This document shows, in pieces, positions 18,402-20,162 of a stretch of 64,000 nt of DNA (position 1 is its first letter; every line of letters starts with the position of its first letter). Source of the stretch: Aquisalimonas lutea. Its GTDB lineage: Bacteria; Pseudomonadota; Gammaproteobacteria; Nitrococcales; Aquisalimonadaceae. Location: assembly GCF_030409225.1 (NCBI RefSeq), contig NZ_JAUFPK010000001.1, positions 350,604 through 414,603 on the forward strand, in the 5' to 3' direction. Made by a program: the position numbers and the translations under genes. Below the pieces are notes generated by a model. It was given only the letters and a program-made list of their open reading frames with translations. It was not told where the DNA came from and did no database searches.

Positions 18402-20162
18402 ATGACCGGACACATCTCTTACCCCAGCGGCGGCGAGAAGATCTCCGTCAAAGACGGTACGATCCAGGTCCCCGACAACCCGATCCTCGGCTACGTGGAG
18501 GGTGACGGCATCGGGCCGGATATCACGCGCGCCTCCATGCGCGTCTGGGACGCCGCGGTGGAAAAGGCCTACGGCGGCAAGCGCAAGATCCACTGGGCGG
18601 AGCTGTTCATGGGGGAGAAGGCCGCCGGCATGTACGACGGCGACTACTTCCCGCAGGAAACCAAGGACGCCCTGCAGGACCTCCTCGTCTCCATCAAGGG
18701 CCCTCTCACCACGCCGGTGGGCGGCGGTTTCCGGTCGCTGAACGTGGCCCTGCGCCAGGACCTGGATCTCTACGCCTGCGTGCGCCCGGTGCGCCACTAC
18801 GACGGCGTGCCCTCCCCGCTGCAGCACCCGGAGGACGTGGACGTGGTGATCTTCCGGGAGAACACCGAGGACGTCTACGCCGGCATCGAGTACCAGTCCG
18901 GCACCCCGGAGAACCGCAAAGTCGCCGACTTCCTGCGCAACGAGATGGGCGAGCGTTTCTTCGAGGACGCCGGCATCGGCGTCAAGCCCATTTCCGAGTT
19001 CGGCAGCAAGCGCCTGGTGCGCAAGGCGATCCAGTACGCCGTCGACAACAACCGCGAGAGCGTCACCCTCGTCCACAAGGGCAACATCATGAAGTTCACC
19101 GAGGGGGCGTTCCGCTCCTGGGGGTATGAGCTTGCCCGCGAGGAGTTCGGCGACGTCACCATTACCGAGGAAGAGCTCTACAGCACCTACGGCGGCAAGC
19201 GGCCCGAGGGCAAGGTGGTCATCAAGGACCGCATCGCCGACATCATCTTCCAGATGATGCTGCTGCGGCCCAACGAGTTCGACGTCATCGCCACCATGAA
19301 CCTCAACGGCGACTATCTCTCCGACGCCGTCGCCGCCGAGGTGGGCGGCGTGGGCATCGCCCCCGGCGCCAACATGAGCGACAACATCGCCGTGTTCGAG
19401 GCCACCCACGGCACCGCGCCCAAGTACGCCAACCAGGACAAGGTGAACCCGGGCTCGCTGCTGTTCTCCGGCGTGATGATGCTCCACCACATCGGCTGGT
19501 CCGAGGCCGCGGACCTGATCAGCGCCGCCTACGAGCAGGTGGTCACCAGCAAGATCGTTACCTACGACTTCGCCCGCCAGATCGAGGGGGCCTCGGAGGT
19601 GCGCACCAGTCAGTTCGCCGACGCCATCATCGCCGAGATGCAGGGCGGCCTGGACCTGGAGCAGTTCCGCTCCGAGCGCGACCAGGCCATCGAGAAGGAC
19701 CGCAAGGCCCGGGAGCTCCGCCGCGTATCCTCGCCGCTGGAGGAGATGATCGCCTCGGGCCGCATCCCGCACACCGTGGGCGATCTCATGAACCCCAGCC
19801 CGGTGTCCGTGCCCGCCGACACCAGCGTCGAGGACGCCATGCACCTGATGCGCGAGAAGGGCATCAGCAGCGTCATCGTGCGCCCCGGCGAGGACGGCGA
19901 ATGGGGCATCATGACCCAGCGCGACGTCCTCGCGCGGATCGTCCAGCCCAGTCGGCGCCCGAACACCGTCAAGGTCGGCGAGGTGGCGTCCAAGCCGCTG
20001 GTCACCGTGCCCGTGGACATGACCCTGCACGACTGCGCCGAGAAGATGGGCGGCAGCAACATCCGCCGCTGCGCGGTCAAGGACAAGGACCAGGAGCCCA
20101 TCGGCATCATCTCCGATACGGACATCTTCGCCAGCGTCGAGCAGTTCGGCCTGCCGGAGTAA
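18402..20162 (+). CDS. icd: NADP-type isocitrate dehydrogenase fused to tandem CBS domains
   Basis: Residues 1-413 are a complete E. coli-type isocitrate dehydrogenase, which oxidises isocitrate to 2-oxoglutarate. Visible motifs are [10 protein letters not shown], the substrate and phosphorylation site RSLNVALRQ with S112 (equivalent to E. coli S113, the AceK target), NLNGDYLSD and [12 protein letters not shown]. coli Icd ends about here (416 residues), but this protein continues. A charged linker (414-455) leads to two CBS motifs (about 457-515 and 524-583: [17 protein letters not shown], then [12 protein letters not shown] and GIISDTDIF). A CBS pair usually binds adenine nucleotides, so allosteric control is likely but inferred. 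The reading frame is continuous and not a sequencing join. ppc follows on the same strand. Confidence 0.93.

Follow-up and report, generated by a model that had tools for sequence, protein, structure and literature searches.

An isocitrate dehydrogenase fused to a CBS-domain pair in Aquisalimonas lutea and related Gammaproteobacteria, a candidate kinase-free control at the isocitrate branch point

Analysis of a 64,000-nucleotide stretch of the Aquisalimonas lutea genome (the window) confirmed, at the sequence level, a gene encoding a complete NADP-type isocitrate dehydrogenase (Icd) that continues through a linker into two CBS domains (Table 1). Textbooks use the AceK switch acting on isocitrate dehydrogenase as their example of protein phosphorylation in bacteria, and the question addressed here is how bacteria that have the isocitrate branch point but no AceK control it. 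A sensor that is conserved, attached to the enzyme itself and, in the window's order, never found together with AceK would be a direct and testable answer. It could supply an element for controlling the glyoxylate bypass without a kinase, and tail and AceK would then offer a natural comparison of two builds of one control.

Table 1. Features of the icd-CBS fusion gene and its downstream neighbor (window coordinates)
Feature	Position	Strand	Basis or remark
Likely ribosome-binding site, AGGAGG	18392..18397	+	4 bases upstream of the fusion ATG
icd-CBS fusion gene, 586 aa	18402..20162	+	Single open frame; Pfam and NCBIfam; kept in relatives
Icd catalytic core, residues 1-414	18402..19643	+	TIGR00183, PF00180, active-site conservation
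Ser112 (E. coli Ser113)	18735..18737	+	Invariant in 34/34 fusions (alignment)
Linker, residues 415-456, mostly helix in the predicted model	19644..19769	+	Alignment and model
CBS repeat 1, residues 459-513, GIMTQRD signature	19776..19940	+	Pfam; T505 and D508 invariant
CBS repeat 2, about residues 525-583, GIISDTD signature	19974..20150	+	Second Pfam stretch; G568 and D574 invariant, 571 is S or T; limits read off structure models
ppc, phosphoenolpyruvate carboxylase, neighbor outside the fusion protein	20288..22933	+	NCBIfam NF000584, 1111 bits

The catalytic core is recognized by the Iso_dh model of Pfam (PF00180; residues 31-409, 286 bits against a cut-off of 27) and by the NCBIfam equivalog for NADP-dependent Icd (TIGR00183; residues 4-414, 642 bits against 567.3). 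The CBS model (PF00571) matches in two stretches, with 89.2 bits for the protein against a cut-off of 24 and its best stretch at residues 459-513. Among the sequence matches listed from solved structures (60 of 101), those to Icds do not extend beyond the core, the best of them reaching query residue 413-414, and none is an Icd with CBS domains. These results bear out the preliminary description, made from the sequence alone, which had seen a complete core to about residue 413 followed by a linker and two CBS motifs; we place the CBS part at about residues 459-583.

Thirty-five loci were fetched from a single scan of genome_contigs with short peptide patterns of the query, and because the scan relied on such patterns it would miss distant fusions. 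Core and CBS part share one open frame in 29 of the 35 loci, with 171-179 residues beyond the core match; the tail is shorter than this only at contig ends (L014 and L040), and L036 starts within the core, at its contig start. The remaining loci are contig-end fragments (L030 with the core, L039 with the CBS part), a frameshifted gene (L033), and three tail-less genes (L031, L034, and L035). Cultured Arhodomonas aquaeolei, Nitrococcus mobilis, Halorhodospira abdelmalekii, H. neutriphila, and Methylonatrum kenyense are among the sources of the one-frame loci. The same in-frame junction across these loci, cultured strains included, excludes a frameshift or assembly error at 19640-19780, and since the junction is so conserved we reject the explanation that such an accident joined icd to a separate CBS gene, to which we assign next to no probability. 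Three short, diverged pairs of DNA repeats were seen within the gene, and one copy, 19648-19679 (72% like 18754-18785), lies just past the junction; we take it as chance because such pairs often are. In the Alkalilimnicola ehrlichii AK92 draft (L033) and in genome G274 (L123), two frameshifts break the fused gene with all its pieces well conserved, which may reflect sequencing error or a decaying gene.

Across many family codes the fusion is kept at 64-95% identity, and its junction and tail length are the same throughout. All 15 active-site and NADP positions that were checked (E. coli numbering) are invariant in the 34 aligned fusions. Within the CBS part of these proteins T505, D508, G568, and D574 are invariant and residue 571 is always S or T; the motif [T/S]xxD, which we take to be the ribose-phosphate signature of CBS repeats, is present in both repeats (505/508 and 571/574) of all 34. 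The commonest residue has a mean frequency of 0.66 in the CBS part versus 0.84 in the core across the 34 fusions. Eight linker residues (R434, E438, R441, P445, M449, G453, R454, and P456) are invariant in the same alignment, a degree of conservation that appears to be more than expected of a passive tether.

When modeled alone, the CBS module adopted a CBS-pair fold (pLDDT 86.4), which together with the Pfam matches excludes the possibility that residues 457-583 lack a CBS fold. The best fold match listed was cyanobacterial CBS-CP12 (Foldseek E 1e-12; for 5nvd, Z 19.7 and rmsd 2.0 over 128 residues at 28% identity), and the PDB fold matches listed were CBS-domain structures, among them pairs solved with AMP, ADP, ATP, Ap4A, SAM, and c-di-AMP. 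CBS pairs bind varied ligands; the fold leaves the ligand unfixed because the matched pairs carry such different ones, and so does the signature because it is the general CBS one. A full-length model (pLDDT 77.9, pTM 0.63) was poor in parts of the core and was not used for placing the tail on the core.

The fusion was found in 37 of 54 genomes of the window's order. It is in one piece in 34 of the 37, although in G282 and G303 its end is truncated; the others are the frameshifted gene of G274, a gene on two contigs in G280, and a gene seen only from residue 268 in G302. A tail-less Icd of about 60% identity is encoded by 13 of the 54, all of one genus, and four genomes (G290, G299, G300, and G321) were placed in neither Icd class. 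AceK was detected in none of the 37 fused genomes, in all 13 tail-less genomes, which represent a single genus, and in none of the four placed in neither class. Isocitrate-lyase-family matches occur in all 54 genomes and are strong in 36 of the 37 with the fusion, the weak one being in G280 (82% complete); malate synthase is found in 50 of the 54, including 34 of the 37 fused genomes, the three fused ones without a match being G277, G301, and G302. Monomeric isocitrate dehydrogenase family matches were also detected in 11 of the 54 genomes (nine full length, a fragment in G276, and a marginal match in G278), which gives some hosts Icds of two kinds; the window's genome had no match to this family.

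In 11 of the 13 genomes of the tail-less genus, aceK comes after icd on the same contig and strand, as in G311 (icd at 857144-858433, the kinase part of AceK at 859401-860165), while in G317 and G319 the two genes are on different contigs. The AceK of G311, the only one of the genus that was scored, is complete (608 bits against a cut-off of 488). In a quick tree, the Icds of three of the 13 genomes (G311, G316, and G323) group with those of G155 and G266, AceK-bearing members of another family in which icd and aceK are side by side, and lie far from the fused Icds. From this grouping and the adjacency of the two genes, it appears that an imported icd-aceK pair replaced the fused gene in the tail-less genus, which is the simplest reading.

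A class sample of 274 genomes contained 204 with an icd match at 1e-60, and the 70 without one were left out. Among the matches listed, 16 of the 204 matched across the core and the CBS tail, the 15 besides the window's own at 64-82% identity. They were compared with the other 188, all but the weakest of which had their matched range among the matches listed; G174, cut by a contig end, was counted as not fused. Isocitrate-lyase-family matches were present in 137 class genomes, and 43 weak ones (all single except in G195), probably methylisocitrate lyases, were set aside. A strong isocitrate lyase match was present in 14 of the 16 fused genomes versus 60 of the 188 others, and AceK in one of the 16 (G214) versus 36 of the 188, both among the matches listed and with kinship ignored. 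When only isocitrate-lyase-positive genomes are compared, AceK is found in 1 of 14 with the fusion versus 34 of 60 without it (Fisher p = 0.0008, kinship ignored, among the matches listed). Lacking both tail and AceK is nevertheless common, since 26 of those 60 non-fused genomes had no AceK among the matches listed, and single absences weigh little in the genomes that are incomplete (for example G005, 62%; G195, 58%). Together the class (16) and order (37) samples, with three genomes shared, contain 50 different fused genomes, one of which has AceK. In view of this distribution, tail and AceK seem for the most part to be alternatives, not partners. In a phylum sample of 398 genomes, 62 had a match at 1e-160, and the CBS part was matched only in the window's own genome (G000) and in G072; a different Icd tail, described below, also turned up in this sample.

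In a careful Icd tree of 52 rows, the fused proteins cluster with the unfused Icds nearest to them in one clade (100/100); one node (99/92) holds all 31 fusions as well as ten unfused Icds. Four of these ten come from AceK-bearing genomes (G149, G195, G157, and G268, with aceK adjoining icd in the last two), three from genomes with no strong isocitrate lyase match (G005, 62% complete, G111, and G228), and three from genomes with isocitrate lyase and neither AceK nor a CBS tail (G013, G051, and G177). G181, outside the node, also has isocitrate lyase but lacks both the tail and AceK, and an isocitrate lyase match is missing from two genomes with the fusion, G221 (82% complete) and G032 (100% complete). 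In G214 the fusion coexists with an intact, divergent but open AceK homolog of 592 aa (L122, 705-2483), whose score of 427 bits falls short of the 488 set as cut-off by NCBIfam. From G214 and the four genomes with lyase and neither element (G013, G051, G177, and G181), it follows that no strict either-or rule governs tail and AceK. G093, of the same family code as G214, has a lower-scoring AceK too.

The Icd tree requires at least five changes between the fused and unfused states (4-6 over bootstraps; 3 counting starred branches only). That number fits one gain and several losses, but the count does not separate gain from loss, and a single origin of the tail, which we had considered, was not retained on this evidence. 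Counted by tree, tail and AceK can be compared in three to five independent pairs, which show no association and are too few for a test. The Icd of G177 (L057) ends shortly into the linker, of which it retains the first part; the three forward frames beyond it showed no CBS-like sequence, and a methyltransferase-like frame (named by eye) comes next. Its CBS part was likely lost, since this Icd groups with the fused Icd of G032, which has the same family code.

We propose that the tail senses adenine nucleotides, AMP or ADP against ATP, and that the nucleotide-bound tail would shift the activity of the attached Icd, with neither kinase nor phosphorylation, and so apportion isocitrate between the TCA cycle and isocitrate lyase of the glyoxylate bypass, setting the branch point in AceK's place. 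We put this proposal at about even; in its favor are the conservation of the fusion and of the CBS signature, fold matches that include CBS pairs solved with adenine nucleotides, the presence of both bypass enzymes (isocitrate lyase and malate synthase) in almost every fused genome of the order, and the detection of AceK in 1 of the 50 fused genomes sampled. The broader notion, that the tail does the work of the AceK/Icd switch as a one-component system and that lineages have exchanged one solution for the other (once through import of an icd-aceK pair), is held more tentatively, at somewhat below even. AceK has an allosteric AMP pocket controlling its activity, and AMP with pyruvate has served as kinase inhibitor and phosphatase activator (PMC6591243). 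Because AceK itself has this pocket, the same AMP signal would serve the tail, and our guess for the direction is that AMP would switch Icd on, as it does via AceK. Nucleotide binding, the identity of the ligand, the effect on activity and its direction, and the replacement of AceK are inferred.

The tail might instead regulate Icd through another ligand, such as SAM, c-di-AMP, Mg2+, NADP(H), or other nucleotides, or serve osmotic or redox control apart from the glyoxylate bypass. The fold matches listed do include pairs for SAM/MTA (3kpc), c-di-AMP (5ks7), and Mg2+ (MgtE), several fusion hosts belong to genera of halophiles or alkaliphiles, and 2 of the 16 fused class genomes have no isocitrate lyase match; however, nearly all fused genomes do have the lyase, and tail and AceK almost exclude each other. 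We consider this reading unlikely though a serious competitor. A tail that is structural, acting in oligomerization or stability, or near-neutral, with shared ancestry alone behind the anticorrelation with AceK, would accommodate the repeated changes of state in the Icd tree, the lack of association across independent pairs, and the partial linker left without a CBS part in G177. It would not readily explain a near-constant tail length, the invariance of the signature and of eight linker residues in all 34 fusions, or the enrichment of isocitrate lyase in fused genomes (kinship ignored), and we regard it as improbable.

The preliminary description had also suggested that AceK phosphorylation and CBS sensing act jointly on one enzyme, as two independent energy controls, and had pointed to the conserved Ser112. 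This residue, presumably both the isocitrate-binding and the AceK-target serine, is indeed retained by all 34 fusions, yet AceK was detected in 1 of 50 fused genomes, and for this reason its conservation does not point to AceK. The Pfam AceK model (PF06315), which was positive on the E. coli control, had no match in the genome of the window, 100% complete in 16 contigs, where isocitrate lyase (a 440-residue frame) and malate synthase are both present. Joint control is thus refuted for this genome, barring an AceK missed by PF06315 or encoded in missing sequence. Rare lineages such as G214, with both fusion and AceK homolog, might possess it, but with AceK not found in 49 of the 50 sampled fused genomes, the window's included, it is very improbable as a general account. 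A loop near residues 183-188, which we guess to be part of the AceK recognition segment, has fewer residues than its counterpart in the tree's other Icd clade; it was rejected as a mark of lost AceK binding since the AceK-bearing tail-less genomes G148, G149, G157, G195, and G268 share the short loop. The window's genome also has two other Iso_dh-like matches, LeuB-like and tartrate-dehydrogenase-like (translations, named by eye).

In 25 of the 35 loci the adjacent ppc gene, also described beforehand, comes after the fusion; some contigs end before reaching it. No ppc match was detected in the fetched DNA of the more distant fusions L026, L027, L028, and L029, so the pairing is not universal. 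This neighborhood fits a role in balancing anaplerosis and proves nothing.

The candidate nucleotide-responsive Icd can be set against known systems. With E. coli-type NADP Icd (TIGR00183, NF005425) it has in common the whole catalytic core and the active-site and NADP positions, and it differs by an additional stretch of about 172 residues that comprises the linker and the CBS pair. IMP dehydrogenase, cystathionine beta-synthase, and CBS-pyrophosphatase likewise carry CBS pairs as allosteric modules on a metabolic enzyme, but their catalytic domains are different, and the NCBIfam models of other CBS-bearing enzymes match the fusion protein weakly. C-terminally extended Icds (TIGR02924; Thermus 2d1c, 496 aa) are a different family, to which the fusion scores 230 bits, below the cut-off of 561.35. 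As in the AceK-Icd switch of E. coli, the same branch point would be controlled, perhaps in response to AMP (PMC6591243), but the fusion has its sensor on the enzyme and no kinase, AceK not being found. CBS-CP12 of cyanobacteria (5nvd, 5nmu), the closest fold match listed, is also a CBS pair acting on central carbon metabolism; it is a separate regulator able to inhibit phosphoribulokinase (PMC9514657), rather than an enzyme domain. Mycobacterial Icd places the branch point under metabolite control without AceK, through metabolite-mediated activation, and the part of PMC4999502 available mentions no CBS tail, in contrast to the fusion.

No description of an Icd-CBS enzyme was found among the open-licence PMC papers listed, the scope of the search being such papers rather than subscription journals or protein-database annotation, in keeping with the preliminary description, whose author knew of no described Icd of this type. 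Icd and CBS domains are each known, and it is their combination that was not found in the open-licence literature searched. We expect that sequence databases list such proteins under plain Icd names. The CBS mentions in the available parts of PMC5715377, PMC3111988, PMC7688217, PMC8556138, PMC8542936, and PMC4720418 relate to matters other than isocitrate dehydrogenase.

Another kind of C-terminal Icd tail, unrelated to the CBS one, of 160-169 residues and with a zinc-ribbon-like CxxC...CxxC end, was observed in 15 of 15 fetched loci (L105-L119) from 15 genomes of family code f201, which belongs to the same phylum as the window but to another class. The one such tail that was tested matched Pfam DUF1451 with an E value of 7e-30.
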